A DNA stretch of 64,000 bases, taken from assembly GCA_018240695.1 (NCBI GenBank), contig JAFEFH010000001.1, positions 1 to 64,000 on the forward strand, in the 5' to 3' direction. The stretch comes from Pseudomonadota bacterium (GTDB lineage Bacteria; Pseudomonadota; Alphaproteobacteria; Reyranellales; Reyranellaceae). The notes beneath the pieces are model-generated. The model worked only from the letters and a program-made list of their open reading frames with translations, was not told the DNA's origin and searched no databases. The stretch's first letter is position 1; each line of letters opens with the position of its first letter. Positions 12,445 through 30,824 of the stretch are shown piece after piece. A program made the translations under genes and the position numbers.

Positions 12445-13626
12445 CTAGGTTCCTGTCTGAAGCGGAGCCGGGAAATGGGCTGCGTGATAGTTCGTAAGCG
12501 TGCGTTCCGCGACTTCGTAACCGTGACGGGAAATTCGATCGAACGCGTCCGTCGTAACGGCGTTGAGATCGGTCGGATAGTTCGCGACGCTGTCGACATT
12601 CTCTTCGGAGGAGAACGCGTCGTAGTCGGACGGTGATGCGTTGCGTCCGGCCTTCAGATCAAGATTGCGGTTGGAGTTGCCCATGCGGACGAGAACGCCC
12701 TGGACTTCGCCCCGCATGATCGCGCCGACGAGCATGCGGCTCCTGAGCGCGCGGATTTGGTCGCTGGCAATGCTGAACAGGCGCGGCGTGGCGAGGCGTC
12801 CTTTGAGGAGATTGGCGAGGGGTGGCGTGGGCGACGCCATCCCGAGCGGACCTGATGCATCGCTGCAAATCAGGAAATCGCAATCCACGAGGCCGCGGTC
12901 GATCTTGTAGACCGGCTCGAGTCCGAGATTTTCGTAAGCGCCGCCGTCCCAGAGATTGACCGCCGCAAGCGACGGCGAGGCGGCCTCGAGCGGTTTGCGC
13001 GTGGCGGGATCTGTTCGGTACCAGCCGGCCTTTGGGAGATCGAACCGCAGCGCGCCGATGGCGTAGGGCACGGCCGCGGACGCGGCCACGGCGCGAGCGA
13101 GTGGGAAGCGCGGTTCGTAGTGGCGACCGAAACGCCAGTCGCCCATCTCGCGCTTCGAGAAGCGCCAATTCTTCCCGGTCTCGATGCAGGTGGTATTGAT
13201 CCACCATGTCGGCGTCTCGGGCAGGTCGTTCAAATCCGTTTTGATGTTCCATTGCCGATCGAGAAGGTCGGTCAGAATTTCCGCGCGGTGGTGCAAAAGG
13301 CGGCTCCGATGCCGTGCGACGCCGCGCCAGCCGAGGGCGCCGAGGCTGAAGAGATCGCGCGTCGTCAGAAGCTGCCGGAGCTCGGGAAAGATGCGCTCGC
13401 GATAGAGCGACGAGCCCGGCCAGCGCATCGAACTCGCCGTAATGACGGCCGCCGACACGAGGCTCCCGCCCGACACAGTCGACAGGACCGAGACCCGTTC
13501 CAGGGCCCCGCGGTCGGCCAGGAGGCGAAGAACGCCGAGGTGGAAGACCGCCGCGCGGACCCCGCCGCCGGACAGGACCAACCCGATCTTTCCGAGGCTG
13601 GAGGGGTCGTTTCCTTCAGTGCCCAT
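12445..13626 (-). CDS. Patatin-like phospholipase
   Basis: This 393-aa protein has the patatin oxyanion motif LSGGGVRAA near residue 18-26, the nucleophile elbow STVSGGS with Ser52, and a DGG catalytic Asp motif (LWDGGAYENLG) in the second half. Patatin-like lipases hydrolyse membrane phospholipids and are common effectors in bacterial defence, for example CapV in CBASS. I chose the ATG at 13626 because GGGGAAAG lies just upstream; a longer frame reaches 13749 but has no ribosome-binding site. It is divergent from the E2/E1/JAMM operon across a 137-bp gap and could be the effector of that operon. No CD-NTase is present. Confidence 0.85.
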   Translation of the reverse strand: MGTEGNDPSSLGKIGLVLSGGGVRAAVFHLGVLRLLADRGALERVSVLSTVSGGSLVSAAVITASSMRWPGSSLYRERIFPELRQLLTTRDLFSLGALGWRGVARHRSRLLHHRAEILTDLLDRQWNIKTDLNDLPETPTWWINTTCIETGKNWRFSKREMGDWRFGRHYEPRFPLARAVAASAAVPYAIGALRFDLPKAGWYRTDPATRKPLEAASPSLAAVNLWDGGAYENLGLEPVYKIDRGLVDCDFLICSDASGPLGMASPTPPLANLLKGRLATPRLFSIASDQIRALRSRMLVGAIMRGEVQGVLVRMGNSNRNLDLKAGRNASPSDYDAFSSEENVDSVANYPTDLNAVTTDAFDRISRHGYEVAERTLTNYHAAHFPAPLQTGT

Positions 13627-13763
13627 GCCGACTTTCCCCACATTTACGAATCTACGGGCAACCATACCGCAGCCAGTTGACTCCCCGATTCCGATCTGCG
13701 ATCTTCCGTCCGTTATCGCACAGTCGCACGATCGCACGATAGTGTACACAAGGAGAACAGAAA
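13627..13763. promoter_or_regulatory. Divergent intergenic region between the patatin gene and the E1/E2 operon
   Basis: This 137-bp gap separates two outward-facing transcription units and must hold both promoters. A ribosome-binding site AAGGAG lies directly before 13764, and GGGGAAAG lies before the patatin start on the other strand. A run of CGCAC/CGATCGCACGAT around 13717-13740 contains repeated GATCGCAC/CGCACGAT words that could be an operator. I cannot place the promoters exactly. Confidence 0.45.
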
Positions 13764-13949
13764 ATGCCGAGGCCGTCCGTTACCGAGCTCGAAGCGATCC
13801 TTCAGCGCGAAGACGAAGTCGAAATCGAAATCCTCCCTAACGGTGAGGTGCGCGCCAAGGATCAGACCACCGCGACCGAGCGCGGCGGTCGCAAGCCCCT
13901 GACGATGCGCGAAGACCTCGGCGGCGAGTACGGGGGAGCGCGCTCATGA
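13764..13949 (+). CDS. 61-aa first gene of the ubiquitin-like operon; candidate modifier or accessory protein
   Basis: The protein is 61 aa with an excellent Shine-Dalgarno (AAGGAG) and an ATGA overlap with the following E2 gene, so it is very likely translated. It has an N-terminal helix, a likely beta-hairpin (EVEIEILPNGEVRAKD), and a C-terminus with three Gly-Gly pairs: residues 41-42, 53-54 and 57-58, the last followed by only Ala-Arg-Ser. It is too short to be sure of a beta-grasp fold, although ThiS-like proteins are only slightly longer. Removal of the last three residues by the JAMM protease of the operon would expose a C-terminal Gly-Gly. That is hypothesis; it could equally be a regulator or a substrate. 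Confidence 0.7.
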   Translation: MPRPSVTELEAILQREDEVEIEILPNGEVRAKDQTTATERGGRKPLTMREDLGGEYGGARS

Positions 13950-14326
13950 ACGTGCAGCGCGTCCGGGCGGAGATCGTGCAGGCCGCCGCCCATTTCCCGA
14001 ACATCGATACCTTCACCACGACCGACGGCGGCGTCTACATCAAGGCTGCTCTCCAGACCTCGGTCGGGCAGGCCTACGTGATCGCGATCACGTTCGTCGG
14101 CTATCCGAACAGCATGCCGAAGGTCACGGTGATCACGCCGGCGGTGCAGCACAGCATGCACATGTACAAGGGCGGCTACATCTGCTTCATGCACCCGAGC
14201 TACTGGAATCCGGCGCGCCACGACCTCAAATACGTGCTGATGCAGGCGGCCGTTTGGCTGAACAAGCACGAGATCTACAAGCAGAGGGGCGTATGGCCCG
14301 GCCCCTCCCTGGCGCACGCGTCATGA
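13946..14326 (+). CDS. E2/UBC-like conjugating protein
   Basis: At 126 aa this is a bare UBC-fold domain. Diagnostic features are YPNSMPKV (the E2 YPxxxP element at about 53-60), then HSMHMYKGGYICF with the predicted catalytic Cys80, and Trp87-x-Pro89 downstream, matching the E2 ICxxxxxxWxP pattern. It should accept a ubiquitin-like protein or small molecule from the E1-like protein as a thioester and pass it on. It overlaps the genes on both sides by 4 bp (ATGA). Bacterial E2 proteins of this kind occur in operons with E1 and JAMM proteins. Confidence 0.88.
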   Translation: MNVQRVRAEIVQAAAHFPNIDTFTTTDGGVYIKAALQTSVGQAYVIAITFVGYPNSMPKVTVITPAVQHSMHMYKGGYICFMHPSYWNPARHDLKYVLMQAAVWLNKHEIYKQRGVWPGPSLAHAS

Positions 14327-14859
14327 GGATCGACTTCACGCCGCTCCCGATGACGGAACTTCGGACGCGTCCGGGAGAAATCCTCGACCGCGTCGCCGAG
14401 GACGGCGAGGCCTTCGTCATCGAGCGCAACGGCCGGCAGCGCGCCTGTCTCGTTCCGATCTCGGTCTTCCTTCCCGATATCTCTCCGGCGCGCATCACCC
14501 GCGAACTCGACGAGCTTGAGAAGGCGGGCGAAGTCGCACAGACCACGATCAACGACGCCCGTGAAGTCGCGATCACCGTGAAGCAGCAGCAGAGCGACTG
14601 CGCCTACACGATCATCATCACACTACCCCACAACTATCCGAATTCCTGCCCGCGGGTTTACGTCGGCGAGCTGAAGGACGACGCCCCGCATCGCTTCGCC
14701 GACGGCGCGCTCTGCATCTTCGGCGTCGTTGGCGCCTGGAACCCCGGCAAACATACGGCGCGGGATGCGCTCGAAAACGCGCGTCGCTGGCTCGGCGGCT
14801 ACGAGGCGTGGCAACTCACCGGCGCATGGCCAGAGGCAGGATCGCAGCATGGACAGTAA
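14323..14859 (+). CDS. Phd/YefM-like antitoxin domain fused to a second E2/UBC-like domain
   Basis: The protein is 178 aa. Residues 5-50 match the Phd/YefM antitoxin fold pattern: ELR, GEILDRV, then FVIERNGRQRACLVPI. Residues 60-80 form a charged helix. Residues 95-170 are a second UBC-like domain with YPNSCPRV, the candidate catalytic Cys131 in GALCIF, and W139-x-P141. The start ATG overlaps the upstream stop (ATGA); an alternative TTG at 14254 is less likely. The Phd part normally binds DNA or a toxin, so this E2 may be recruited to DNA, autoregulate the operon, or recognise a protein target. I know of no established system with this fusion. Confidence 0.82.
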   Translation: MRIDFTPLPMTELRTRPGEILDRVAEDGEAFVIERNGRQRACLVPISVFLPDISPARITRELDELEKAGEVAQTTINDAREVAITVKQQQSDCAYTIIITLPHNYPNSCPRVYVGELKDDAPHRFADGALCIFGVVGAWNPGKHTARDALENARRWLGGYEAWQLTGAWPEAGSQHGQ

Positions 14860-15706
14860 GAGCAAGCTCTTCGAGCGGATCGAACGACTCTACGACGTCG
14901 GCCTCATCGGCCAGGCGAAGGTCCTCGTCGCCGGCTGCGGCTCGGGCGGCAGCCAGGTCGCGCTGCAATTGGCGATGTCCGGCATCCGCAATTTCAGCCT
15001 CTACGACAACCAGACGCTCGGCGAGGAGAACGTCATCCGCCACGCCTGCGGCTTGCGCTATGTCGGCTGGAACAAGACCGAAGCCCTGCTCGACCTGCTC
15101 CGGGACCGCAACCCCGAGATCAAGGCCGAGATTCACAACGAGGATTTGATGGAGACAGTTGATCTCGACGATCGCGTCCGTGACGCAAGCGTCGTGATCC
15201 TCGCGACGGACAACGAGCCGTCGCGGTTCCGGCTGAACGAAGCCTGCGTTCGCACTGGCACGCCCTTCGTCGTCGGCAAGGTGTTCACGCGCGGCATCGG
15301 CGGCGAAGTCTTCGCCTACCGGCCGAAGGAAGGCGGCTGCCTCGGCTGCCTCGAAATGCTGCTGGAGCGCTCGAAGTTTCGCGACAAGGTCCGCGAAATC
15401 GATCTCGTCAGCCAGGAAGAGCGTGACGCGATGTACGGGCTGCCGGTGGCCGAGATCAAGGACTCGCCGGGCCTGAACGTCGACATCGCCTTCATCACGA
15501 ACTTCCACACGCGCTTCGCGCTCGACGCGATCGCGCGGCGGTTGCCCGAGCGGCCGAGAAACATGGAGCCGATCCCCGGCAACTACGTGGCGTGGGGCAA
15601 TCGCCCCGTCCATCCCTTCGACAAGCACTTCCAGATCGAGAAGATGAGTTTGCCTCCGCTCGATGCCTGCAAGATCTGCCAGGAGGAGAACGGCGATGAT
15701 GTTTAA
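14849..15706 (+). CDS. ThiF/E1-like adenylyltransferase
   Basis: This 285-aa protein has the nucleotide-binding loop GCGSGGSQ at 29-36, the E1-type LGEENVIRHACG segment (57-68) with Asn-x-x-Arg, and D121 and N130 in the ATP/Mg region. Two CxxC pairs, C164/C167 and C274/C277, probably bind zinc. This is the E1/MoeB/ThiF fold, which adenylates the C-terminus of a ubiquitin-like protein. There is no separate catalytic-Cys domain or Ub-fold domain. It overlaps the Phd-E2 gene by 11 bp and the JAMM gene by 11 bp. It should be the activating enzyme for the two E2-like proteins. Confidence 0.92.
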   Translation: MDSKSKLFERIERLYDVGLIGQAKVLVAGCGSGGSQVALQLAMSGIRNFSLYDNQTLGEENVIRHACGLRYVGWNKTEALLDLLRDRNPEIKAEIHNEDLMETVDLDDRVRDASVVILATDNEPSRFRLNEACVRTGTPFVVGKVFTRGIGGEVFAYRPKEGGCLGCLEMLLERSKFRDKVREIDLVSQEERDAMYGLPVAEIKDSPGLNVDIAFITNFHTRFALDAIARRLPERPRNMEPIPGNYVAWGNRPVHPFDKHFQIEKMSLPPLDACKICQEENGDDV

Positions 15707-16634
15707 GCGCGCCGAGGGCGTCGAGCTCCAGATTCCCCGCGCGGCGGTCGGGGCAATCTTCGACGAGTGCGATCGTTACGACGTCGACGAAACCGGCGGC
15801 CGCATCCTTGGAACCTACAAGGGCGGCGATCGCCGGCTCGGCATCACGGTCAGCGGCGTCATCGAGCCTGGCCCGAACGCCCAGCGGTCGCAGACCTATT
15901 TCAAGCAGGACGGCGAGTATCAGGAGTCGGTGTTCCGGCGGGTCGAGGACCACGTCCCGGAAATCGAGCACCTGGGCAACTGGCATACGCATCATGTGAA
16001 CGGTCTCCGCCACCTGAGCGGTGGCGACATCGAGACTTACTTTCGCACCGTAAATCGCCCGACGCACAACACCGACTTCTTCTATGCCCTGCTCGTGACG
16101 GAGCGCGTGCCGGGCAAAAGCGGTCTTCAGCGCTACATCTTCAAGAACTACCTCATGCGTCGGAACGACGACAATGTTTATGAAATCCCCGCGAGCGCCG
16201 TGACCTTGGTCGATGCGCCGCTCGTCTGGCCGGCATCGGAGGAAAGCGTGCCCAGGAAGGTCAAGACGCGGTCGGCGGAAGCCGTTCCGACCATGGATCT
16301 GGTTCATGATCAGGACGTGGTTTCTCAGTTCTTCCCGAAGGTGAAGATGCTGAAGTCGGCCGAGCTCGGGATTTACTGGCGCGGCACCTTGCGGACGGCG
16401 GACGGCGCCGATCTCGAGGTGGTGGTTCTCCGTGACAGCGACGCGCCGCACGGTTGCGCGGTCACGCTTCGCAACGCGCCCGATGTTCTCGAGCCAGTGA
16501 CGAAGGCTCTGGCCAAGGAAGTGTTTCCGAATGCGCGCTCGGCACTGGTCGCCGCCGAGCGGGCGTGTAACGCGCAGCTTCTGGCGACCGCAACTTCGGC
16601 TAAGAAAAAACGGGGGCGTCTATGGATGTTCTGA
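15696..16634 (+). CDS. JAB/JAMM (MPN+) metalloprotease with C-terminal extension
   Basis: This 312-aa protein has the JAMM signature: E32 in the N-terminal strand, H97-x-H99 (in WHTHH), then S108-x-x-D111. All zinc ligands and the catalytic Glu appear intact. JAMM proteins cut isopeptide bonds or trim ubiquitin-like precursors. Residues after about 200 form a second, unassigned region with a basic C-terminus (KKKRGR). The start is preceded by AGGAGG. It overlaps the upstream E1-like gene and the downstream MBL-fold gene, which points to strict co-expression. It probably processes or removes the modifier handled by the E1 and E2 proteins. Confidence 0.92.
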   Translation: MMFKRAEGVELQIPRAAVGAIFDECDRYDVDETGGRILGTYKGGDRRLGITVSGVIEPGPNAQRSQTYFKQDGEYQESVFRRVEDHVPEIEHLGNWHTHHVNGLRHLSGGDIETYFRTVNRPTHNTDFFYALLVTERVPGKSGLQRYIFKNYLMRRNDDNVYEIPASAVTLVDAPLVWPASEESVPRKVKTRSAEAVPTMDLVHDQDVVSQFFPKVKMLKSAELGIYWRGTLRTADGADLEVVVLRDSDAPHGCAVTLRNAPDVLEPVTKALAKEVFPNARSALVAAERACNAQLLATATSAKKKRGRLWMF

Positions 16635-17476
16635 CTCTTTTTGTCGATCAGGGTGCGTTGGCGGGTGTTCGGGTCGGCGGCGAGGGCATCGTGATCGATG
16701 CTCACATGCCGCAGTGTGAGAATGTGAGCCCGGAAGAAATCCAGCAAAGCCTCTCGAGCTATTTCCGCGGCGTCGACGTTCGCGGATTTGTTCTGACGGG
16801 CTTCGACTCGGACCACGCGCATGATCTCGGCGTCGATTGGGTTTTGACCAACCTCAAGCCCGCCTGGATCATGTATCCGAAGTACTACAAGGATACGGAT
16901 TGCGCGCGGGCGGTGTTCAACGCTATCAACAAGCATGAGCGGCGACGCGAGGGCACCGCCCGGCCGCTGATCCGTCACTCGGTCCGCCTCGACAAGATGG
17001 AGTCGCGCTTCATTCCGGGGCTCGGCGCAAACTTCTCGGTCGAGCTCTTCTCCCCGCACTTCGAGGACATGGATACCTCGAATAATTGCAGCATCGTGGC
17101 GAAGATCGTCGGCAAGGACGCGACGGGCTTCAGCTACCTCGCGACCGGCGATACCGAGATCGACCGCTGGGAGACGATCAGCCGGATCTTCGGCGATCGG
17201 CTGGCGTCCGACGTGATGGCCGCGTCCCATCACGGCTCGATCTCCGGCGTCTACCCGCAGGCGCTTTTGGACATCAGCCCCAACACGGTGCTCATCAGCG
17301 CCGGGGTGGACAGCCAGTATGATCACCCCCACGGCGCGTCGCTCCTGGCCTATCAGGCCGTCGCCGAGCATGTGTGGGCGACGAACGCCGGGGGCGTTGG
17401 CCAGAACCTGCTTACGCGCCGTCGCGGCACGGACTTCGAGACGGTGGTGTTTCAGCACGCGAAGGCGGCGGCATAG
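16622..17476 (+). CDS. Metallo-beta-lactamase-fold hydrolase, ComEC-like subtype
   Basis: The protein is 284 aa. The metal motif region reads F61-D-S-D64-H65-A-H67-D; the ComEC-type SHxDxDH pattern is present with Phe replacing the first His. Further ligands appear as Asp in TGDTEID, the His pair in ASHHGS and His in YDHPHG. This is the ComEC/Rec2-like MBL branch, which includes nucleases and phosphodiesterases. It is the last gene of the operon and overlaps the JAMM gene by 13 bp. It could be an effector nuclease or a small-molecule hydrolase; the missing His could lower activity or leave a mono-metal site. Confidence 0.85.
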   Translation: MDVLTLFVDQGALAGVRVGGEGIVIDAHMPQCENVSPEEIQQSLSSYFRGVDVRGFVLTGFDSDHAHDLGVDWVLTNLKPAWIMYPKYYKDTDCARAVFNAINKHERRREGTARPLIRHSVRLDKMESRFIPGLGANFSVELFSPHFEDMDTSNNCSIVAKIVGKDATGFSYLATGDTEIDRWETISRIFGDRLASDVMAASHHGSISGVYPQALLDISPNTVLISAGVDSQYDHPHGASLLAYQAVAEHVWATNAGGVGQNLLTRRRGTDFETVVFQHAKAAA

Positions 17477-17796: not shown

Positions 17797-18257
17797 CAAG
17801 AGCAGGCCTGCGCCTGCCGTGAGATCGCGTAGGCGGCGCGACGATCCGATTGAAGCTGGTGCGGACGGAGGGAATTGAACCCTCACGAGAGTGACCTCCC
17901 TACGGATTTTCATACCACTTCGGCTTTCGCCGCCGCTCCTCGCGTTCGTGGTGGACTAACCGATACTGTGATGAGTGACGGCAAACGCAAAAAAATCCGT
18001 GGATAGACGCGTCCAGAGGCCGGACCGGCTCTATTTCGGCCGCCTGGGCGAGCGGCGTCACGAAGCCGCCCGGTCAGCTAGTTGGGGTGGTGCCTCTTCG
18101 CCATTCGGTGACGATCCTCGCGCAGCTATTTGATCCGAATGTAAGTTTGCCCTTCGAGAACGCGCTTTACCTGAGCCGAGTCAATGGCGCCGGCTTGCTG
18201 TCGTATCGCCTCGATGCCTGTATCGTCACACTGATCTAGGTGAAAGCGACGGTCTCA
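17797..18257. other. 461-bp non-coding stretch containing a tRNA-like remnant
   Basis: Besides the tRNA 3'-end-like segment at 17857-17912, I see no open gene here. A CGGC...GCCG hairpin and an ACCAC/GTGGT pairing lie just to the right of the remnant (17918-17955). The promoter of the helicase gene must be somewhere in the right half. This stretch separates the E1/E2 operon from the kinase-helicase pair and may be the seam of an older insertion. Confidence 0.5.
17857..17912 (-). tRNA. tRNA 3'-end-like remnant (class II type), possible old attachment site
   Basis: On the minus strand this reads as a T-arm (GAGGG-TTCAATT-CCCTC), a 7-base 3' acceptor strand CGTCCGC, discriminator A and CCA, preceded by a variable-arm-like segment and a TGAAAATCC anticodon-loop-like end. 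No 5' half (expected to start GCGGACG) is found within about 150 bp, so it is not an intact tRNA. The break again falls at the anticodon loop, as at 9302. The A discriminator and long variable arm would suit a Leu tRNA, but the anticodon cannot be assigned. Confidence 0.5.
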
Positions 18258-21200
18258 ATGAAAAACAGCAAGTCCACCAAAGCGCACGGACTCGAGGAAC
18301 GCTTCGAGTTTCCGGAGGACGCCCTCGCGCCGGGTAACCGCGAAGCGCTACGTCCTGCGATATTCGAGGTTCGGGAAAGAAGCACCGGTACCGAGCGGAT
18401 GCTGAAACTTTGGCGCAAGACAGCCGGTCCCCTCGACGACGATCTGAGAAATCTCTGGTTGCACGAGATGCGTCAGGTGCAGCGTGTCATGGCGTACGCT
18501 GGTGCCCGGGATGTTGTGGTTGATGTGCTTGAGTTCGTCGAGGACGACGACAATTTTGGCGTCGTGCTCGAGTGCATCGGCCAGCCGCTGGGCGTAAGGC
18601 GGCGGCGAGTGGGCCGCCAGCACTGGTTGCGAAACTTGGCTGGACCCAGGCCTCGCGTGCTCTTCTGGCAGAATCTTCGGCGCATTGTCGCCGCCTTGGG
18701 CATTATACATTCGCAAGGTCTGGTTCACGGCCAGCTGACCACCGATACGATCATGACAGAAGGCAGCGACGAACCCGATTTTCAATTGGGCGGCTTCGAA
18801 TGGAGCCTTTGGCTCAATGCAGGGACCCCCGAGCTAACCCAGGCCAAAGTAGGCGCAGTGGCCGCAGCCCTGAGATCGGAGAGTTATTCCTTCGCTCAGG
18901 ACTGGCATGCGCTCGGGCTTGTTGCACTTGAATGTCTAGACTTGGAGGCTCGGGCCTCCGGCGAAATCCTTCCCCGACGGGGCAGCGAAGTGCCGGTCAA
19001 CCTTCAGGTCGCGGAGCGTGTGCTGCTAAAGCGGCTGATCGCTCCGGCGCGGATGGACCAGTTGGATGCTGACTCGATCATACGAACGATCGATGACCTC
19101 TTGACTAGTGTCGCACGCGCCGTGAGTTCGCCATCGGGCTCCTTTTTGATGAGATTTGACCGGCAATCGAAGCTCGCCGACGTCATCTATGACATTAGCG
19201 CCGGCGAGATAGCTATCGACGAGTATCGGCGGCAGTTGGAGTGGGTCCGGGGCGATTTGGACGGCGGGGCTACGCTTCTCATGCCTAGAGCCGATGGCGA
19301 TATCACCCGCCTAAAACTCGTCACGGCAAACATGATCTACCACTTGCAAGCCTCTCGCGATGAGGGCGCAGCGCTGTGGGATGTCGCCGTGTGCCGGTCC
19401 GTAGAGATACGGAAGGATACATTCAGGATTGGAGAGGCGGAGCCTCATACGTTGATGCAGCCCGTCATCGTGGCTGCAAATGCGCGTGAGGCTCAGGAGA
19501 CACGGGCGCGACTTGGACCGGATTTGCTGGATTGGAGTGCCTATTCGAGTCGTCGTCCAGATCAAGGTGCGGCAGGCGAGGTCGACGCCGTTCGTCGTGC
19601 CTTGCTGTTGGTGCAGATTGTCGAGGCGGTAGTCAAGGCGCTCGAAGTTTATCCTGTGCAGGTGCTTGGTCAGGGCCTCCGGAGCGGCCGGCCGTACGTG
19701 GATGTCCGTGCTGAACCGAACAGCGAGCGGGATCGGATCGCAAAGCGGATCGGCTTGCATTCGGGTGCCAACTCTCTCAGGAGGCTGTTCGAAGAGGAGC
19801 ATCGGGACGCTGAGACGCAGTGGCGACTGAGTGAAGCGCGTAGCCTGGGCGCCTCCCAAATCGGCGATGTAGTGGCAACGTTTGTCGATGTTGTGGAGCA
19901 TCGCGGCCGTCGATCATACCGATTCGAGCTCGACGAGGCCCTCCCGGAGCACCGTCCACTGTTTCTGCGAGCGGCACGCGACACAGGAACCGAACAGGCA
20001 ATCCAGCGCCGGCTACGCAACATCAAGGCGCTCGACACCCGGATCGACCTTGCCGAGATGCTGGCGGACCCTTGGCGCGTGCGTAGGTCCAGCAGGGAGA
20101 GCCTCAGCGAGAAGGAGCGCAAGGACAAAGAGTACCTCGACTTGGATAAGCCGAAACAGGAGGCGCTGGTTAGTCTGTGGTCGACCCTGCCGTCATTCTT
20201 CGTGGTCGGGCCGCCAGGAGTTGGCAAGACGAAGCTCGCGACCGAGGTCGTCCGCAGGCGCTTTTTGAAGGACCGTTCGAGCCGGATGCTGCTGAGCGCG
20301 CAAGGGCACGACGCGCTCGACAATCTTCAGGTCAAGGTCAAAGAGACGCTCACAGTCGCTGGCCTGACAGACGTGCTGGTAGTCCGATCGACAACACCGG
20401 ATCGTCGCAAAGGAAGCGACGAAGAGGTTCATCGCGCCGGGTTCGAATATCTCGACCGGCTTTCGCAAAGCCTCCTGGCGCAAATGGCGCCCGACACGAC
20501 CCGACGTCGGATGGAATCACTCAAGGAAGCAGCGCGCCGGCTGGAGACGTCGAAGGAGAGCGTCAGCCGCGAAGAACGTACGGGCCTCGGCGCCATCTCC
20601 AGCCTGGTGCTCGATGCGGCCAACATCGTAATTTCGACGGCAAATTCGCCGGATGTCGAACGGCTCGTCGAAGCACGCGAGCAGTTCGACTGGGTGATTG
20701 TGGAGGAGGCAGCCAAGGCGATCGGACCGGAGCTGGTAGGTCCTTTGATGCTGTCCGGCCGACGCCTCCTCATTGGTGACCACCATCAGTTACCGCCGTT
20801 CGACTCGGATCGTCTGATTAGAATTCTTCGCGATCACGGTCTCGTCTCGGAGGCAGTAGGCATCGCGGAGGACATGGTTGGGCCTCTCTTCCGGGATGGC
20901 GAACTTGAGGAAATTCAGAAGGTCGCCGCTGATGCTGCGGTGTTCAGGGACCTCTCTGGATTGGCACTGCGTCTGCTTGAGCCATTTCGCTCGGTTGTGG
21001 AGGAGGACGAACGCCGCAAGGATGCGAACTCTGCCCATCGTCCTGTAGCAGCTACCCTTACGGAGCAGCGGCGCATGGACCCAGCCATAGCTGAGGTGGT
21101 GTCGCGGGTCTTTTACCAGAAGAGCCGCCTCACTACCGAATCAGGGCGCGCCATGGCCGCCGAGCGTGGACCGGCCCCAGTTGCGCAACTGGGACCACTT

Positions 21201-21827
21201 CCCAAATCCCCCATCGTCATCGTTGGTTTTCCGCATGTCAGCGCCACAGGGAAACCAGACGCCTTTGAACGGGCACGACCGCGCTGGCACAACCCGTCCG
21301 AGGTAGAGAGCGTTGTCGACACCTTGCGCCTCCTCAGGCCATGTGATTTGGCAAAGCCGCCAACATTGGCAATCCTTTCGCCTTACAATGCCCAGGTCGC
21401 CAAGATTCGCCAGCGCGTGCAATCGCTTCGTTCTGGCCCGCTTTCCCACCTGGACACGTTTGTGCCCGTGCTCAGCAACGGCGACTTCGTTGGCACCGTC
21501 GACGCCTTTCAGGGTAGCGAAGCGGATGTCGTGGTCCTTTCGCTGGTTCGGAACAATCCGATGACCGGTGGACGGGCCCTGGGCTTTCTCCGCGATCGAC
21601 GCCGCATGAATGTCGCGCTCAGCCGTGCGAAGTGGCAGCTAGTCATCGTGGGCAGTCTGGCCTTTCTCGAGGAAGCTGTCAGGGGAGTAAACCCTGGCGA
21701 GGAGACGCACGACCTTTCTTTCCTGACGGACATGGTTACCCTGTTCGAAGAGCTGAAAGGCCGCAAGCGCGGAGACACAATGCTGGCCATCGAGGTGACG
21801 CCAGAGAGTCTCGCGAGGCGATCATGA
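18258..21827 (+). CDS. Pseudokinase-like domain fused to a UPF1-type SF1 helicase
   Basis: This is a 1189-aa protein. The N-terminal 280 residues resemble a Ser/Thr kinase fold: HGQLTTDTI (about 157-165) stands where HRDxKxxN is expected, and the DFG Asp is replaced (LGGFEW), so it is probably inactive. The C-terminal half is a complete superfamily 1 helicase. It has Walker A GPPGVGKT (about 652-659), Walker B VIVEEAA (about 813), GDHHQLPPF, TEQRRMDP, then VDAFQGSEADVV and NVALSRAK. UPF1/Dna2-like helicases translocate on RNA or DNA. The stop overlaps the start of the PLD gene by 4 bp. A GTG start at 18240 is possible, and neither candidate has a strong ribosome-binding site. A two-gene defence system is likely but not identified. 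Confidence 0.85.
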   Translation: MKNSKSTKAHGLEERFEFPEDALAPGNREALRPAIFEVRERSTGTERMLKLWRKTAGPLDDDLRNLWLHEMRQVQRVMAYAGARDVVVDVLEFVEDDDNFGVVLECIGQPLGVRRRRVGRQHWLRNLAGPRPRVLFWQNLRRIVAALGIIHSQGLVHGQLTTDTIMTEGSDEPDFQLGGFEWSLWLNAGTPELTQAKVGAVAAALRSESYSFAQDWHALGLVALECLDLEARASGEILPRRGSEVPVNLQVAERVLLKRLIAPARMDQLDADSIIRTIDDLLTSVARAVSSPSGSFLMRFDRQSKLADVIYDISAGEIAIDEYRRQLEWVRGDLDGGATLLMPRADGDITRLKLVTANMIYHLQASRDEGAALWDVAVCRSVEIRKDTFRIGEAEPHTLMQPVIVAANAREAQETRARLGPDLLDWSAYSSRRPDQGAAGEVDAVRRALLLVQIVEAVVKALEVYPVQVLGQGLRSGRPYVDVRAEPNSERDRIAKRIGLHSGANSLRRLFEEEHRDAETQWRLSEARSLGASQIGDVVATFVDVVEHRGRRSYRFELDEALPEHRPLFLRAARDTGTEQAIQRRLRNIKALDTRIDLAEMLADPWRVRRSSRESLSEKERKDKEYLDLDKPKQEALVSLWSTLPSFFVVGPPGVGKTKLATEVVRRRFLKDRSSRMLLSAQGHDALDNLQVKVKETLTVAGLTDVLVVRSTTPDRRKGSDEEVHRAGFEYLDRLSQSLLAQMAPDTTRRRMESLKEAARRLETSKESVSREERTGLGAISSLVLDAANIVISTANSPDVERLVEAREQFDWVIVEEAAKAIGPELVGPLMLSGRRLLIGDHHQLPPFDSDRLIRILRDHGLVSEAVGIAEDMVGPLFRDGELEEIQKVAADAAVFRDLSGLALRLLEPFRSVVEEDERRKDANSAHRPVAATLTEQRRMDPAIAEVVSRVFYQKSRLTTESGRAMAAERGPAPVAQLGPLPKSPIVIVGFPHVSATGKPDAFERARPRWHNPSEVESVVDTLRLLRPCDLAKPPTLAILSPYNAQVAKIRQRVQSLRSGPLSHLDTFVPVLSNGDFVGTVDAFQGSEADVVVLSLVRNNPMTGGRALGFLRDRRRMNVALSRAKWQLVIVGSLAFLEEAVRGVNPGEETHDLSFLTDMVTLFEELKGRKRGDTMLAIEVTPESLARRS

Positions 21828-23623
21828 GCCTGACAATTGCGATCCCCGTCTTTCGCATCGGCTGCAAGGTAGGTATTGACCGCGGTCGAGCGTGGAGCGT
21901 AGTCGACGAGACCGTTCTGTGGGCAGTGACGCGCCAGTCACGGTCGATCGCATCGCTGGCAAAGGATGCTGACCTGCCTCGCCAGATCGTCACCGCATCG
22001 ATCGCGCGCCTAATGCGGTTCAGGCTAGTGGAGGTGGTAGTTATGGAAGCGGGGGTCGCCTTCCGTGCGAGCCCCTACGGGTTCGACATCATCAGCAGTG
22101 GTGCCGCCTTGCCGTTCTTTCCAAAGCGGATTTCAAGGCCGGTCAGCTTCGTTGTCGAGTGGGCTACCGGCGATTTCTTTCCCACGCGGCAGATCCGGTT
22201 ACTGTCGCCGAACAAGCTGGAGCAGGCACGCCGTGCCGGAAGCGAGGTGCGCGTAATCGCGGTTGAAGGCGGTGGCCCTTCCATGTCGCCGGACGCCAAT
22301 CTGAACCGGCTCTCCGAGATTGCTGCTCGCGGATGGAATGAGCAGGTCGCAGTCATCGACAGCCGGACAGCTACCATGCATGACAATGAATACATGGCGC
22401 TGCGAGTGGTAGACGGGATGGTGCAGGGGCTGCCGGATACCGCCGGTCCTGCATTGCGACGGATGGTCAGCGAAGCCGCAGCTCTTCCGGCGGGAGCGGA
22501 GCGGGTTCCAGTCACATATGCAGGCGTCCAAGAGACGCTTGACCACGAGCCTGCGGCGCATTCGTGCAAATTTGATCCATCCGATATCGTCATCGGGGGA
22601 TCGGCGCAACGAGCCTGTCTAGAGAGCCTGATAGCAAGCGCGCAAAGTCGCGTGATCATCCATTCGACTTTTCTCGACGCAAAACGGTTCGACGTCCTGC
22701 TCGACCTGATCCGGTCGGCATGCCGTCGGGGTGTCCGCTTTGATCTACTCTGGGGTGCGGAAAAGGACGAAGAAACCGAAATTAGGAATGCTGCGGAAGC
22801 GGCAAAGATTGCAGCCTTGATTCGGTCCGATCGCGATCTGGCCGGACGAGTCATAATTCACATGCGGACCACAGGATCGCACGCCAAGTTGATCTTGGTC
22901 GACACTCCGGACGCCGGATGGATCGCGGGCGTGGGATCTTGCAATTGGGTGTCCTCCCCCTTTCAGTCCGTTGAACTTACAGTTGTCCTGCGCGATCAGC
23001 ATGCGGTCGCAGACGTCATGGTGGCTTTTCAGCAAATGGTCGGGCGCCGGGGACTAGCGGATGGAATCGCCAATGAGTTGGGCATTACGGCGCGAGACCT
23101 GCGCCGCATGCCAACGGGCGCAGGCACCGCCAGCGTAACGGTCGTTGTCGGCGACGGTCACGAGAGATTGGCCCGAGCAGCAAGCGGTCAGGCGCGCGCG
23201 CGACTTGTCATAGGTAGCAATAGATTGGGTTCGACTGCCCGGCCAGGCGCGATCATGCCGGGCGAGGTTGCTGCGGAGCGGGCAGGCGTCCGGGCTGTCG
23301 TGCTTTATACGCAAACGACTGGCCCCATAAAGAATCGGCATGGCCGCGCGTTGACAGAAGAGGCGTATGCAAACGGGGTTGTCCTCGCCAGAACTCCCAA
23401 GAAATTGCCGTTACATGGGAAGTTCGTCGCTTGGGACCAGGACGATGTCATCGTAACAAGCCTGAACTGGGCTTCGGCGTCGAGCGATCCGGACTTTCCG
23501 TGGGGCGATATTGGAGTGCATGTTCACGGAACGGGGATTGCATCAAGCGTTCTCGCCCGGCTCGAGATTTTGTTCCCGGAAATTGCGGCTGACGCAGGCG
23601 GACCCGGATACAGGTCGGAATAA
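21824..23623 (+). CDS. Phospholipase D-superfamily protein with two HKD motifs (nuclease-like partner)
   Basis: The protein is 599 aa. The first HKD-like motif is SHAKLILVD followed by GSCNW (about residue 352). The second is LHGKFVAWDQDD followed by TSLNWAS (about 530). These are the two half-sites of a PLD active site. The N-terminal 100 residues contain a winged-helix-like segment (SIASLAKDADLPRQIV). PLD proteins paired with helicases often act as nucleases, as in DISARM DrmC. The gene is coupled to the kinase-helicase by an ATGA overlap, so the two products probably form one complex. Confidence 0.85.
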   Translation: MSLTIAIPVFRIGCKVGIDRGRAWSVVDETVLWAVTRQSRSIASLAKDADLPRQIVTASIARLMRFRLVEVVVMEAGVAFRASPYGFDIISSGAALPFFPKRISRPVSFVVEWATGDFFPTRQIRLLSPNKLEQARRAGSEVRVIAVEGGGPSMSPDANLNRLSEIAARGWNEQVAVIDSRTATMHDNEYMALRVVDGMVQGLPDTAGPALRRMVSEAAALPAGAERVPVTYAGVQETLDHEPAAHSCKFDPSDIVIGGSAQRACLESLIASAQSRVIIHSTFLDAKRFDVLLDLIRSACRRGVRFDLLWGAEKDEETEIRNAAEAAKIAALIRSDRDLAGRVIIHMRTTGSHAKLILVDTPDAGWIAGVGSCNWVSSPFQSVELTVVLRDQHAVADVMVAFQQMVGRRGLADGIANELGITARDLRRMPTGAGTASVTVVVGDGHERLARAASGQARARLVIGSNRLGSTARPGAIMPGEVAAERAGVRAVVLYTQTTGPIKNRHGRALTEEAYANGVVLARTPKKLPLHGKFVAWDQDDVIVTSLNWASASSDPDFPWGDIGVHVHGTGIASSVLARLEILFPEIAADAGGPGYRSE

Positions 23624-23810
23624 CCGGTGATCAGGTAGCGCGCCGCTTCTGTCGCCAGGTGCGCCTCGCGGGCTGGAAATGTCCCGGAGAACATGCTGCT
23701 CGACCCGCGAGGTGACCTTGATGCACGCGATGCAGCTCGACTCCGGTAGGATCAGCTTGGGCCTTCCATTACGCGCTGTAGCCCCACACGATCAAAGTCT
23801 GGAGGAGCTT

Positions 23811-24629
23811 ATGAAACCATCCGTAACTTATAAATATCACTCGCTAGACGACTACCTGCTCTCAAAGCGGCTCGACGTAGATGGCATGCTTGATGATGGA
23901 TGGGGAGCACACTTTCCCGTTAAGGCACGAGAGATTGACGCTGCTGTGCTATTCGCCGACATCTGCTCGTTTTCCGCGCGCACCAAAGATTTGTCTCCAA
24001 TCGAAACTCTTATCTTCCTGAATAATTTTCTCGCTTGGATAAGTGCAGAAGCGTTACGAGATGGAACGCTCATCGTCGATAAATATATCGGAGATGAAAT
24101 CATGCTTGTCTTCTCAAAGGAATTTGGCTCGCTAGATCCCTTTGTCGACGCCTTGCGGGTGGGGCGAGCCATGCTCGATCGCGATGCGCTTGGGTTTGCG
24201 CCAAGGATCGGAATAGCCATGGGCCGCGTTGCCGTCGGCTACGTCGGTACACCTCTTCGCTACAATTGCACCGTGCTGGGGGCGCCCGTTGTCGTCGCAA
24301 AGCGCTGTTGCGGCATTGGAGAGGAGCCATTCTCGTCGATTACATTCCCTGCCGAGTTGTGGGCCCAGCACCAACTCGAGGAGGTCTTCCCAAGGCGAAA
24401 GCGTCAGGCACGCGACGGAACAATTTTCGAGGAGCCATTGAACTGGCAACTCGGCGATTCGCGTGTGACAGCCTTGAAGAATATTGGTGAACGCCAAGTA
24501 AGGACACTCTTCACCAACCTCGTTCATTTTTCACAATACGCGCCCGAAGACCGGGCTCGGGATGGGCTGACTCATCTAAAAAGAGAGGGCAGCTATCACT
24601 ACGCGCGTTATTCTTATGAAGCCGAATAA
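23811..24629 (+). CDS. Class III nucleotide cyclase
   Basis: The protein is 272 aa with one catalytic domain. Metal Asp50 lies in FADICSF and D95 in KYIGDE, and the base-contacting Lys of the VxKxxGD motif is retained (K91). In the segment that normally reads YTVxGxxVNxAxR, here about TVLGAPVVVAKR, the transition-state Asn is replaced by Val and only the Arg remains. I chose ATG 23811 because GGAGGAG sits just upstream; the frame opens earlier at 23679 without support. Free-standing class III cyclases make cCMP or cUMP in Pycsar defence or cAMP in ordinary signalling. No PycTM or PycTIR effector is adjacent. No regulatory domain is visible. Confidence 0.8.
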   Translation: MKPSVTYKYHSLDDYLLSKRLDVDGMLDDGWGAHFPVKAREIDAAVLFADICSFSARTKDLSPIETLIFLNNFLAWISAEALRDGTLIVDKYIGDEIMLVFSKEFGSLDPFVDALRVGRAMLDRDALGFAPRIGIAMGRVAVGYVGTPLRYNCTVLGAPVVVAKRCCGIGEEPFSSITFPAELWAQHQLEEVFPRRKRQARDGTIFEEPLNWQLGDSRVTALKNIGERQVRTLFTNLVHFSQYAPEDRARDGLTHLKREGSYHYARYSYEAE

Positions 24630-24725: not shown

Positions 24726-27700
24726 TCAGATGTCCCATTTCGCTCTTTGTTCATCATCGTGACTACGGGCTTCTTTAATATGATGTTCCATATCTGCCAG
24801 CATCTTCTTGGCCCATCGCCGGACTTCGCCGGTGGGGTGCTTTTCGAGAGACATCAGGGGAGCTTGATAGCGCACGTAATACGTCGCGAGTGAACCCATC
24901 CAGCCGAAGGTGTGCATGTTCTGCTCGATCTTCCGAAGGACGTCTTCGCGATCACCGAACTCGTCCAAGAGGCGGCGCGTCAAGGAATGAAATTCTTGCG
25001 GACCTTCGGTCGAGGCGTCGGGAGTGAGGACCGGAGCTACGCCCGCTAAAAAGGCAGGGCCGACGTCGGGATGGGCGTGGCACCAGGCAAAGAGGACGTC
25101 CTCCGGCAGACTGAGAATGGGCGGCACTTTCTTATCCCCGAAGGAATACGGGTCGCCGAGGGCGCTCTCCATGCGCCAGGATTTCAGCCTGTCTTCTGAG
25201 CCGATCGCTTCGCTCAAGATAGGCCAAACTACGCCCGAGAATTCGGACAAGAGCTTGGGCAGAAGCGGCTTTATCAGGTCCTTCATGTCGCGATCCGGAT
25301 CGGCCGCCAGATGCTTGGCAAGTGTTAGGGCGACTGACCTGGCGTCGGAATCTTCCCATCCCTTCTTGAGCATCCAACCGATCAGCACCTTGAAGTGATG
25401 GGCGTCCATCTGGGAGCCGCCCTTCCTTTCACGGCGATTGAGATTGACCGCGGCCAGCTTGAGCTGCGGGCGAAGCCCCTCGATCTTGTCCCGTGCGCCG
25501 TGGACGTACATGCCCATAAGGTCAAGGGCAACGGAGTACGCATCACCATCCATGGACAGCATTTGGTCGAATAGCGGGCTAACTGAATCAGTGGGCAATT
25601 TCGCGAGAACGCCGCCCGTGGTCCAATTTGCGAGCGTGCTGGGCGGCAGGACGCCGTCGCGCAACCCTGCTCTTACAAGCTGCACGTCCTCGTCGGTAAT
25701 CCCAATACTCGCGGTCGCCATAACGAGCACTGGCGCGAATACCTTGGATGCCATCGCTTCCTTTTTGAACTGCTCGACCACGCCTGGATGCTTTGCGGCA
25801 AGGCCCGTCAGATAGCCGACAAGCACACCATAGTTTCTCTGGCCCTCCGGCGCAGCGACCACGGCGGATTTGATCGGTGTCAACCAATCGAGCGGCGTCG
25901 ACGAATGAGCGGCAATAAATTGGCCGAATTCATAGACCATGCGATGGTCGCCGGTGCTCAATTGAGGGAGCAGGCGAACGATGAGCTCCGGCTCCTTGAG
26001 CAGATCGTGCGTCAGCTGCTCGACGGCGGCAATTTGATCATTTCTGGCCTTCTCGAAGTCGTGCTCTTCGTCGAGCAGGTAGTCCCACGGCATATCGGTC
26101 AGCAGGAACTTGGCCCGCGTTGGCAGATCGTTGGGCGTGAGTTTGTCGATAAGCTTTTGCACGCGCTCGGGCACACCGTCGCCAAGATCCTTCTTTTCGA
26201 ATTGCAGCACGTCGGCGAGGCTATCCAGCGCTTCCGGCCAATAGGGATAAACGGCCGAGATGGCCTCGATCCATTGTTCAGCATTGTCAATGAGGCCATG
26301 GGAGACCAGCGAGCGCAGCCCTTGGCCGATGCCCTTTCGCGCCCGCGTTCCGACGTCGTCGTCTCGTTGGGCGAGGGTGACGAGTCGCTCGGCACAGGCG
26401 ATGATGTAGTCAGAGACATCTTTCCAGGTATTCGGTTGCCAAGGCTGCAGGGCGGGACGGCTACCCTGGATTTCGGGGCCGACGCTTCTCGAAAAGCTAT
26501 GGGTCCTTGCTCCTTCCAGGAGCGCGTCTACCACCAGAGGCATTTCCGCGCCGTCATTCCTGCGAATCAGATCATCGAGCAGGCGCAAGCGGGCGTCGCC
26601 GTCGGCCTCGGTATTTCCAAGAAAGACCGGAAAGATCGCCTTGAATTCGCCCGTGGCGTTGTTGGCCCAGTCTTCGTTCTCCGCCAAGGCAAGCTTGAGA
26701 AGGAGTAGGCCGCCTTGTTCGAATCCCTCGTTTGTAAATGCAATTTTTTCCAGCGCCCAAACAAGATTGCGCCGCAGATCGCCGCCTATTTGCCTTGTCT
26801 CCTCGTGCGACAACTGGCCCACGACCCGTTCGATCAGCATGACGACGGATGCCGCGTCGATCTCCGCAAGGGACGAGAGAATTTCGGCGTTTCCGCCCGC
26901 GCGTAGGGCATCAAGTGAAGCGAAGGGTCCATTTAGGCGACAGACGAATTTCGCAACGTCCTTTGCGATCTGCCTGTCATTCAGAACGGCCAACTGCTCG
27001 GCGAGCCTCGTCCGCAGATGCTTCGGTAGTTTACCGGCAAGGATGTCGTCCCATCGTGCGTCGCCCCATTGCCGCCATTGCCGTTCGGCCAATCGCAGAG
27101 CGATGGGGCGAGGTTGCAGGACCAGAAGACGGCCGCGTGTCTGGGCGACGCCGCGCCCCGACAGATCTTCGAGCGCCGCATAAATCTCCGGCGCCGTTCG
27201 ATGTCGCGCCAAATGGGTTACATCTTCGACGTCGGTCGTCGGCGACTTCGTTCCGAGTAGGCCGAAAGCGCCAAGAAGCATGCCGGCGTCCAGCAATATT
27301 TGGCGATCGAAGAGACTTCTTCCCACAAGGACCCGCTCGACCAGATCATCGTCGCTGACGGTCGCGATCGAGCCGTCCTTTAACCAAGCCTGACCGATGA
27401 GGACCGCCATTTTGGGGTAGCCGGACGCAAACTTAAGCAAACGACTTTGATCGTCGCTCGGAAGATCCGGAGCCACTTGCTTGAGGAGTCCTTCGACAAC
27501 TTCGGGAGGCGCTAGATCGACCTGCAATGTGCCGGACGGCAGCGTGCCTGCCGGCAATTCCGGATCGATCGTTACCAGGGACAAGCGACTGCTCGTCCGT
27601 TTGACCATCGCCGCAAGGTCCTGGTGCGTCTCCGTGGTGCACTGGTCGACGACGACGATTGCTCGAACCGAGCTGTCGGCCAGGCTCTGAACGACCGACT

Positions 27701-28796
27701 TGATATTGACCGTGCCCGCTTCGGGTTCCGAACTGTAAAGGACGAGGTCGCTCAATAGGAGACCGGAAATTTCCTCGTCGTCGGTCGGCCGAAAAGCTTC
27801 GAGCGCCAAGCGGGATTTTCCGGTGCCTGAAAGACCAACGATCCTGGCGACGCCGCGCGCCGGTTCGATCAGCTTGTGAAGCTCGCTACGGAAGGACTCG
27901 AGGCGGCTGTCGGGCACGAAGGTAAATCCGTCGTGTTCGGAGCGACCAGCCCAATGCGACCAGTCGCGCATGGGGCCGGCCAACCCGGGCTGAGTTTGTT
28001 CTAGAACCCAAGTCGCGACGGCCGGGTTGGAGTTGACCCAGTGAGCTATTTGCGAGGCGTCGCGAAATTGGACGCGGCTAGCCTCGACGGTCAGTCCGTA
28101 GAGTGAGAGAGCTTTGAGGACTGCGGTTGTGCGCTTTTGGATTTCTTGGCGCGTATAGGGACGCGAGCACAGCACGACATAGGCGCCATCCGCTGCCAAG
28201 GCGGAGCGCACCATGGGTTTGAGATCGCCGTCCTTGGTGACTATTTCTTTGCCCGCTTGTCCCGGGCCGATCTTGGTTGCCTTCAATTGAAATTGGGTCA
28301 AACGCGCTGGGAGAAAGGGCGTGCGTTCCGGTCCACCTTTCCATTCGATGCGGGCGTCTTCGCCGCCGTCCGGGGCGTTAATGTTTGTGGCGACATGGAT
28401 GCCGTCCATCGGCAGGTCATGCGTCTTCGCTTCGGCGGCAAGCAAGCGGCGTGTGAGGACGGCGAGTTTGCGGTCGCTGAGCGCTGCGATGTGGTCGCTG
28501 GTGACTTCGAACGGTTTGGCGTTATCGTTCTCGATCGGCACCATGTCAGGCCCGGCGAGGGTCTTGAGCGCCGATGGATTGGCGTCTAGCAGTCGCAGAA
28601 GATTGGCGACGGACGCTGCCGGTTTGATCGTGCCGCTCTCGTATTTAGTAAAGGCGCGAGGGCCTCCGCCGAGGAGCTCACCGGCCTCGACTTGTGATAA
28701 GCCCAAGCGCTCCCGGATGCGCCGAATGTCATCTGGCGTGAATTCAGGAGGAGCTAGCTCGATTTCGGGTTGTTTCTTAACCATTTTGGCCATCAT
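24726..28796 (-). CDS. HTH-nuclease-STAND NTPase fusion, Avs-like defence protein
   Basis: This is a 1356-aa protein. Residues 22-75 are an Xre/MqsA-type helix-turn-helix (LGLSQVEAGELLGGG, KYESGTIKP). Residues 130-250 look like a PD-(D/E)xK/Mrr-type nuclease, with D147 in GGEDARIEW and Q170-L-K172 in FQLKAT. Residues 310-530 are a STAND-type P-loop NTPase, with Walker A GLSGTGKS (321-328) and a Walker B-like VVVDQ at D384. The remaining 800 residues are alpha-helical repeat-like sequence, the usual sensor part. This order resembles Avs/bNACHT proteins, which detect phage proteins and activate an N-terminal nuclease. The extra N-terminal DNA-binding domain is unusual. It is divergent from the Fic gene over a tandem-repeat region. 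Confidence 0.85.
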   Translation of the reverse strand: MMAKMVKKQPEIELAPPEFTPDDIRRIRERLGLSQVEAGELLGGGPRAFTKYESGTIKPAASVANLLRLLDANPSALKTLAGPDMVPIENDNAKPFEVTSDHIAALSDRKLAVLTRRLLAAEAKTHDLPMDGIHVATNINAPDGGEDARIEWKGGPERTPFLPARLTQFQLKATKIGPGQAGKEIVTKDGDLKPMVRSALAADGAYVVLCSRPYTRQEIQKRTTAVLKALSLYGLTVEASRVQFRDASQIAHWVNSNPAVATWVLEQTQPGLAGPMRDWSHWAGRSEHDGFTFVPDSRLESFRSELHKLIEPARGVARIVGLSGTGKSRLALEAFRPTDDEEISGLLLSDLVLYSSEPEAGTVNIKSVVQSLADSSVRAIVVVDQCTTETHQDLAAMVKRTSSRLSLVTIDPELPAGTLPSGTLQVDLAPPEVVEGLLKQVAPDLPSDDQSRLLKFASGYPKMAVLIGQAWLKDGSIATVSDDDLVERVLVGRSLFDRQILLDAGMLLGAFGLLGTKSPTTDVEDVTHLARHRTAPEIYAALEDLSGRGVAQTRGRLLVLQPRPIALRLAERQWRQWGDARWDDILAGKLPKHLRTRLAEQLAVLNDRQIAKDVAKFVCRLNGPFASLDALRAGGNAEILSSLAEIDAASVVMLIERVVGQLSHEETRQIGGDLRRNLVWALEKIAFTNEGFEQGGLLLLKLALAENEDWANNATGEFKAIFPVFLGNTEADGDARLRLLDDLIRRNDGAEMPLVVDALLEGARTHSFSRSVGPEIQGSRPALQPWQPNTWKDVSDYIIACAERLVTLAQRDDDVGTRARKGIGQGLRSLVSHGLIDNAEQWIEAISAVYPYWPEALDSLADVLQFEKKDLGDGVPERVQKLIDKLTPNDLPTRAKFLLTDMPWDYLLDEEHDFEKARNDQIAAVEQLTHDLLKEPELIVRLLPQLSTGDHRMVYEFGQFIAAHSSTPLDWLTPIKSAVVAAPEGQRNYGVLVGYLTGLAAKHPGVVEQFKKEAMASKVFAPVLVMATASIGITDEDVQLVRAGLRDGVLPPSTLANWTTGGVLAKLPTDSVSPLFDQMLSMDGDAYSVALDLMGMYVHGARDKIEGLRPQLKLAAVNLNRRERKGGSQMDAHHFKVLIGWMLKKGWEDSDARSVALTLAKHLAADPDRDMKDLIKPLLPKLLSEFSGVVWPILSEAIGSEDRLKSWRMESALGDPYSFGDKKVPPILSLPEDVLFAWCHAHPDVGPAFLAGVAPVLTPDASTEGPQEFHSLTRRLLDEFGDREDVLRKIEQNMHTFGWMGSLATYYVRYQAPLMSLEKHPTGEVRRWAKKMLADMEHHIKEARSHDDEQRAKWDI

Positions 28797-29018: not shown

Positions 29019-30824
29019 ATGCCAACTCCTAATGAGAAGCTCGCCGAAGCGCTGACCGCCCTCCAAGAGCTGCAAAAGGAGGGGCGGCGCGTATTCCGCA
29101 CAAGCGAGCTCAGCCGTATGCACCGCGAACGGCTGATGAGAAATGCCTTTGTCCAAGAGGTCATCAAAGGATGGCTGATCTCTTCAAGTCCGAACGCGCG
29201 CGATGGCGACAGTACGCCTTGGTATGCATCCTTCTGGGAATTTTGCGCTCGCTACTGTGACGACCGTTTTGGAGACCAATGGCACCTCTCGCCGGAGCAA
29301 TCGTTGCTGCTGCATGCCGAGAACACTGTCATCCCGCCCCAAGTCATCGTCTATAGCCCCAAGGGCGCGCGCAATAACACCAAGCTTCTCTTCGGTACGT
29401 CGATTTACGACGTTGTCCAACGAATGCCCCCGCCGGCTGATCTCACCATCCGCGACGGACTGCGCCTGTTCACACCGGAAGCGGCCCTGGTGAAGGTTCC
29501 GGAGACATTCTTCCAGCAGCATCCGATTGAAGCCCAGGTTGTCCTGTCCTCGATCAGGGACGCGTCCGACATCTTGCGGCGGGTGCTCGACGGGGGGAAT
29601 TCCTATGTCGCAGGCAGGCTCGCAGGAGCTCTCCGACGCATGGGCCGTGCCGAGATCGCAGATGAGATCGCGACGACGATGAAGGCGGCTGAATATCCCA
29701 TTCGAGAATCCGATCCCTTCAATGCGCAACAAGTGTTTGGCACCTATCGCGGCACAACGGCCCCCATCGTGTCGCGGATCGAAGCGCTTTGGAAAGCAGC
29801 GCGCGATCCGGTGATCGCGGCCTTTCCGAAAGCGCCCGGTCTCCCGAGGAACAAAGACGAGTACATGCGCTTTGTGGAGGAAATCTACAAAAGCGACGCG
29901 TATCACTCGCTCTCCATCGAAGGCTATAGCGTGACGCCCGAATTGATCGAGCGTGTCCGCTCCGGCAATTGGGACCCCGACATCCACGACAGCGATCGAA
30001 AAAACCGCGATGCGTTGGCGGCTCGAGGGTATTGGCAGGCCTTCGAGGCGGTAAAGGCAAACGTCGCCCAAATTGTGAACGGCACGGAACCAGGCGGGTT
30101 GGTTCGCGTCAGCCATCGCCGCTGGTATCGAGAATTATTTACGCCCTGTGTCACCGCCGGTCTGATTTCTGCGAGTGCGCTCGCGGGCTACCGAAACGAC
30201 GCCGTCTATCTCAGAACCTCTCGCTATGTGCCGCCGAGATGGGAAGCCGTACGCGATGCTATGCCGGCGCTGTTCGATCTCATTGAAGGCGAGAAGGAGG
30301 CAAGTGTTCGCGCAGTGCTGGGTCACTGGCTCATCGGCTACATCCACCCTTACCCGGACGGCAATGGCCGCATGGCCCGCTTTCTCATGAATGCAATGCT
30401 CGCCTCCGGCGGATATCCTTGGACGGTTGTCCGGGTCGAAGATCGAGTTGCCTATCTGCAAGCGCTCGATCGGGCGAGCATCGACGCGGATATCGGACCT
30501 TTTGCGACGTTTCTCGCTGAGCGTGTGCAATGGTCGATGGAGGCCAGAGCACAGGGTGAGATAGCGGACCGGCGTTTCGAGGTCGGCGATCTCGTGAGGC
30601 TCCGGCCGAATTCCCGAGTTGGATTCGGCTATCAACCCAATATTCGCGCCGATGAAATTGGCGAAGTCTATGCGGTCGAGCCCCATCCGCCGCAGACGGG
30701 GCCAACCTATCGGATTTGGGTCAGATTTCCGGGCGAACGAGTCGTCCAGGGTACGTTCGCCTTTGAATATGTGCTCGTGAAGGCAGCAGAAAAACCTCGG
30801 GACGATTCTTCTTTGCAGCCTTAG
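29019..30824 (+). CDS. Fic-domain protein (AMPylase family) with N- and C-terminal extensions
   Basis: This 601-aa protein carries the full Fic motif HPYPDGNGRMAR at about residue 442 (consensus HPFxxGNGRxxR), which supports an active nucleotidyltransferase. An inhibitory helix motif of the S/TxxxE(G/N) type, SLSIEG, occurs about 145 residues earlier in the same chain, so the enzyme is probably self-inhibited. The first 250 residues include helical and winged-helix-like sequence, and the last 90 form a small beta-rich domain. Fic enzymes usually AMPylate protein targets and act as toxins or signalling enzymes. It is divergent from the STAND gene over the 24-bp repeats. Confidence 0.9.
   Translation: MPTPNEKLAEALTALQELQKEGRRVFRTSELSRMHRERLMRNAFVQEVIKGWLISSSPNARDGDSTPWYASFWEFCARYCDDRFGDQWHLSPEQSLLLHAENTVIPPQVIVYSPKGARNNTKLLFGTSIYDVVQRMPPPADLTIRDGLRLFTPEAALVKVPETFFQQHPIEAQVVLSSIRDASDILRRVLDGGNSYVAGRLAGALRRMGRAEIADEIATTMKAAEYPIRESDPFNAQQVFGTYRGTTAPIVSRIEALWKAARDPVIAAFPKAPGLPRNKDEYMRFVEEIYKSDAYHSLSIEGYSVTPELIERVRSGNWDPDIHDSDRKNRDALAARGYWQAFEAVKANVAQIVNGTEPGGLVRVSHRRWYRELFTPCVTAGLISASALAGYRNDAVYLRTSRYVPPRWEAVRDAMPALFDLIEGEKEASVRAVLGHWLIGYIHPYPDGNGRMARFLMNAMLASGGYPWTVVRVEDRVAYLQALDRASIDADIGPFATFLAERVQWSMEARAQGEIADRRFEVGDLVRLRPNSRVGFGYQPNIRADEIGEVYAVEPHPPQTGPTYRIWVRFPGERVVQGTFAFEYVLVKAAEKPRDDSSLQP

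Follow-up and report, generated by a model that had tools for sequence, protein, structure and literature searches.

Assignment of a helicase–phospholipase D gene pair to a pseudokinase branch of Mokosh type I

Judged from its profile matches, a pair of coupled genes in the 64,000-nucleotide stretch of DNA analyzed here (the window) is a typical representative of Mokosh type I, an anti-phage system already known and named in 2022, and belongs to its short-MkoA branch. In the published description, Mokosh type I divides its COG1112 RNA helicase and its PLD nuclease between two genes, and the helicase protein additionally carries an STK domain (PMC11672841). A review lists the type with NERD and PLD domains (PMC10952713). 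The same arrangement is found in the window, where one protein combines a kinase-like domain with a COG1112/UPF1-type helicase and a separate adjacent gene encodes a PLD-family nuclease. An earlier reading made from the sequence only had proposed a two-gene defense locus, which the MkoA and MkoB profile matches support. It had also considered the system unassigned. This part must be given up because both proteins have full-length Mokosh matches in the published domain order (PMC11672841), and Mokosh type I is thus a named system with the same arrangement.

Organization and conservation of the mkoA–mkoB pair

The mkoA gene (18240-21827, + strand) has an intact open reading frame encoding 1195 aa, counted from a GTG at 18240. 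The start used in the sequence-only reading, 18258, is an in-frame ATG inside this frame. The product is a short-form MkoA in which a kinase-like domain is followed by a middle region and a UPF1-type SF1 helicase. Its residues 18-1174 match positions 7-1102 of the 1112-position PADLOC profile PDLC03920 (E = 9.1e-245, 813.7 bits). The SF1 helicase core, which is UPF1/COG1112-like, occupies about residues 621-1160 (20100-21719, + strand), and the Pfam domains AAA_11 (E = 1.3e-24) and AAA_12 (E = 3.1e-36) span residues 635-1139. Within this core are a Walker A motif, GPPGVGKT, at residues 657-664 (20208-20231, + strand) and the sequence VEEA at residues 821-824. The helicase motifs are intact, and an alignment indicates that they are kept in relatives. 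When MkoA was searched by sequence against the PDB, only helicases were matched, UPF1, Dna2, Sen1, and SMUBP-2 among them, and the matches were confined to the helicase part.

The second gene, mkoB (21824-23623, + strand), is also intact and encodes 599 aa from an ATG at 21824. Its start overlaps the mkoA stop by 4 bases (ATGA, 21824-21827). The predicted product is a nuclease-like protein of the PLD superfamily that matches the PADLOC MkoB profile PDLC03922 over nearly its full length (E = 4.5e-91, 304.9 bits) and contains a Pfam PLDc_2 domain (E = 1.3e-16). The first HKD motif, HAKLILVD ... GSCN (H353, K355, and D360; 22880-22945, + strand), is kept in relatives except in one broken open reading frame, and the second, HGKFVAWD ... 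TSLN (H531, K533, and D538; 23414-23467, + strand), is likewise kept. No solved structure was matched by MkoB in the PDB sequence search. An AlphaFold model of the protein (pLDDT 79) matches structures of phospholipase D, the PLD3/PLD4 nucleases, and phosphatidylserine synthase (PSS). The proposed coupling to a two-HKD PLD protein is therefore upheld by the overlap and by both intact motifs.

Relatives were drawn from genomes and plasmids. In 20 of them (18 loci plus L052 and L053), mkoB lies directly downstream of mkoA, usually with a stop/start overlap, and the coupling is thus conserved rather than lost. The mkoB frame appears to be broken in L026, and the contig of L012 ends too early to show mkoB. 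Loci L004-L009 and some phylum matches were left out because their similarity to MkoA lies in the helicase part only. L041, whose protein of about 2270 aa has an N-terminal extension, was not counted as a pair because the next gene has no MkoB match. Several copies are carried on conjugative plasmids, two of these beside Hachiman or Shedu genes. At a threshold of E = 1e-20, none of 50,697 phage records contained a relative.

The kinase-like domain lacks both catalytic aspartates

A putative pseudokinase domain occupies about residues 20-290 of MkoA (limits approximate; 18297-19109, + strand), as delineated by motifs, predicted fold, and a sub-threshold Pfam Pkinase match at residues 74-233. 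Residues 1-620 were modeled with AlphaFold from a 10-sequence alignment (mean pLDDT 72). The top PDB matches of this model in Foldseek are protein kinases, with E values of about 1e-9 and TM scores, normalized by target, of 0.6-0.7. A kinase fold for the N-terminal domain is supported by this model. Together with the AAA_11 and AAA_12 matches, it agrees with the earlier proposal that a kinase-like domain is fused to a full UPF1-type helicase.

An active Ser/Thr protein kinase would be expected to carry the Asp residues of the HRD and DFG motifs. In this protein, HRD reads HGQ at residues 163-165 (18726-18734, + strand) and DFG reads GFE at residues 185-187 (18792-18800, + strand), so both catalytic aspartates are absent, just as had been claimed. 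The β3 Lys (K56) is still present.

The same loss is seen in all 24 short-form MkoA sequences, which comprise 21 aligned sequences and three more distant ones (L038, L039, and L041) that also lack both residues. Among the aligned sequences, the position of the HRD Asp is occupied by R, N, A, G, S, or Q, but never by D, and that of the DFG Asp by G or A, followed by F/Y and E. The β3 position is K or R in every one of the 21, and the metal-binding Asn is gone in 20. Conservation of the pseudokinase domain among short forms is somewhat above that of the middle region and somewhat below that of the helicase, which argues that the domain is not simply decaying.

Mokosh type I has two branches

A second set of MkoA proteins is longer. 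Five of these (L030-L034), which match PDLC03921 over their full length or nearly so, keep the sequence HGDxxxxN. An N-terminal NERD domain is present in all three that were scanned, and the partner is a shorter MkoB of profile PDLC03923 (tested for L030 and L034). As a separate observation, the long-form MkoA of L034 (1423-6192) has two kinase-like catalytic loops, HRDxxxxN near residue 361 and HGDxxxxN near residue 626.

Because the short forms lack the Asp residues whereas the long forms keep HGDxxxxN, kinase degeneration is characteristic of one branch of the type. As read from these motifs, Mokosh type I comprises a pseudokinase branch and another in which the catalytic loop is retained. 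The literature surveyed, which did not cover the founding description of Mokosh by Millman et al. 2022, contained no mention of this split. The branches might correspond to two mechanistic subtypes: a long MkoA with a competent-looking catalytic loop and a NERD domain, and a short MkoA whose pseudokinase has a binding or allosteric role in controlling a helicase–PLD complex. We regard this proposal as plausible but somewhat short of probable. The locus itself is a further Mokosh type I copy in a family already known. The loss of kinase catalysis throughout the short branch is of modest use, since findings made with a long MkoA may not hold for a short one. The role of the kinase domain therefore calls for testing in both branches.

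Genomic setting

The window also encodes a tyrosine integrase (9380-10930), a TrbE/VirB4-like ATPase (36354-38786), and a MobA/MobL relaxase (46569-50363), whose co-occurrence suggests an integrative conjugative element with defense cargo. Defense-type neighbors of the Mokosh pair include PD-Lambda-4_A, Fic, and E1/E2/JAB genes. No tRNA or tmRNA gene was found in the window. A short stretch at 17868-17884 (- strand) resembles the tmRNA 3′ end, with 14 bits falling short of the gathering score, and is possibly a remnant of an attachment site.

Upstream of the pair, a Lit-like protein is encoded near the integrase (11441-12379, + strand; PADLOC Lit, E = 7e-13). A patatin-like phospholipase (12445-13749, - strand; Pfam, E = 3e-17) is divergent from an operon-like run at 13946-17476 (+ strand) and is a possible effector. 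This run encodes an E2-like protein, a second E2-like protein that begins with a Phd/YefM part, a ThiF-type E1, a JAB protein, and an MBL-fold (ComEC-like) protein. Its weak matches, none of which exceeds the NCBIfam cut-off, are to anti-phage 6A-MBL and to CBASS/Bil ubiquitin-like components. The presence of two E2-like proteins, one with an antitoxin-like N terminus, is unusual. However, the Phd/YefM part may be no more than a consequence of having chosen the upstream start codon.

Downstream, 55 bases after mkoB and on the same strand, is an orphan class III adenylate/guanylate cyclase domain (23679-24629, + strand; PADLOC PycC-like, E = 8e-11) without an obvious Pycsar effector. In a protein of 1356 aa (24726-28796, - strand), an N-terminal MqsA-type HTH precedes a PD-Lambda-4_A match of nearly full length (E = 2e-90), which makes the protein an HTH-fused variant. 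The Fic-domain protein (29019-30824, + strand; 601 aa) is SoFic-like in its Fic part only and has an N-terminal extension with weak AbiEi similarity.

A tblastn search with eight neighboring genes, the cyclase gene among them, matched nothing in the relatives' Mokosh loci. The E2/E1/JAB/MBL, cyclase, PD-Lambda-4_A, and Fic genes therefore look independent of the pair and were rejected as third components. Neighborhood analysis, which the sequence-only reading had recommended, thus finds the pair kept in relatives and none of the tested neighbors traveling with it.

Proposed mechanism and alternative explanations

Defense activity would be expected of this copy by homology. Most likely, the UPF1-like helicase MkoA would load on nucleic acid of phage origin, probably RNA, or on its replication or transcription intermediates. 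MkoA would also recruit or license the coupled MkoB nuclease, which would cut the nucleic acid. Degradation of phage transcripts is the proposed action of Mokosh in a secondary source (PMC11291487). The kinase-fold domain would most likely act without catalysis, as a scaffold or as a nucleotide-binding or sensing/regulatory domain. We infer the RNA target, a contact between MkoA and MkoB, and a regulatory function for the pseudokinase. As a whole, an account in which this short-branch Mokosh type I helicase recruits or licenses a PLD nuclease and carries a non-catalytic kinase fold is very probably correct.

One alternative concerns the kinase-like domain, which might still transfer phosphate or AMP in an unconventional manner, as SelO-type pseudokinases AMPylate, and so serve actively as an effector or regulator instead of as a scaffold. 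The Lys or Arg at the β3 position and the conservation of the domain, which is about as good as that of the rest of MkoA, are consistent with this idea, and pseudokinases with other chemistry exist (PMC12599244). However, the HRD Asp, the DFG Asp, and nearly always the metal-binding Asn are all lost, and no compensating acidic cluster was identified. We therefore consider retained transfer activity unlikely and favor a non-catalytic role.

Two other explanations concern the identity of the locus. Kinase degeneration goes unmentioned where Mokosh type I is described in general terms, with an 'STK domain' (PMC11672841), as might be expected if the pair were a previously unnamed system distinct from Mokosh. 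But both proteins match the Mokosh models nearly end to end with very strong scores, and degeneration is common to every short-form MkoA examined, which makes it a property of the known family. An unnamed system is accordingly highly improbable. A reduced DISARM locus, with a DrmC-type PLD protein and a helicase, deserves equally little credence. There is a weak DrmC match in the PLD domain (best PADLOC E = 2e-08), and NCBIfam DrmC scores 38.6 bits, where the cut-off is 133. Yet the PADLOC DrmC score of 31.9 bits is about a tenth of the 304.9 bits for MkoB, the match covers only about 145 residues, and the helicase is SF1 UPF1-like without a DrmA or DrmD match. DISARM membership was rejected because the PLD protein matches MkoB far better than DrmC, and the DrmC match is weak, partial, and below the NCBIfam cut-off. 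No DrmA, DrmB (DUF1998), or methyltransferase was found among the neighboring proteins scanned, and the earlier claim that the locus differs from DISARM is borne out.

Comparison with known systems

DISARM resembles the pair in combining a PLD protein with a helicase, but the helicase belongs to another family. The helicase-linked bacterial pseudokinases (DLHK) described in a 2025 review are likewise pseudokinases fused to a helicase, in proteobacteria (PMC12599244). DLHK proteins keep the HRD Asp and the Asn and lack the β3 Lys, whereas the MkoA of the window shows the reverse. Assignment to the DLHK family was rejected on this difference in motif pattern.

Within Mokosh, type II (MkoC) shares the SF1 helicase and the PLD nuclease. 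However, it is a single gene with no kinase domain described (PMC11672841), whereas the helicase and PLD parts are encoded here by two open reading frames. The long-MkoA branch of type I (PDLC03921/PDLC03923) also places a kinase-like and SF1 helicase protein ahead of a coupled PLD protein, but differs in having an MkoA of about 1600 aa, with NERD and a kept HGDxxxxN, and an MkoB of about 465 aa. With the short-MkoA branch (PDLC03920/PDLC03922), the pair shares domain order, protein lengths, gene order, and coupling. No substantive difference separates them, since the degenerate kinase is common to every member of that branch examined.
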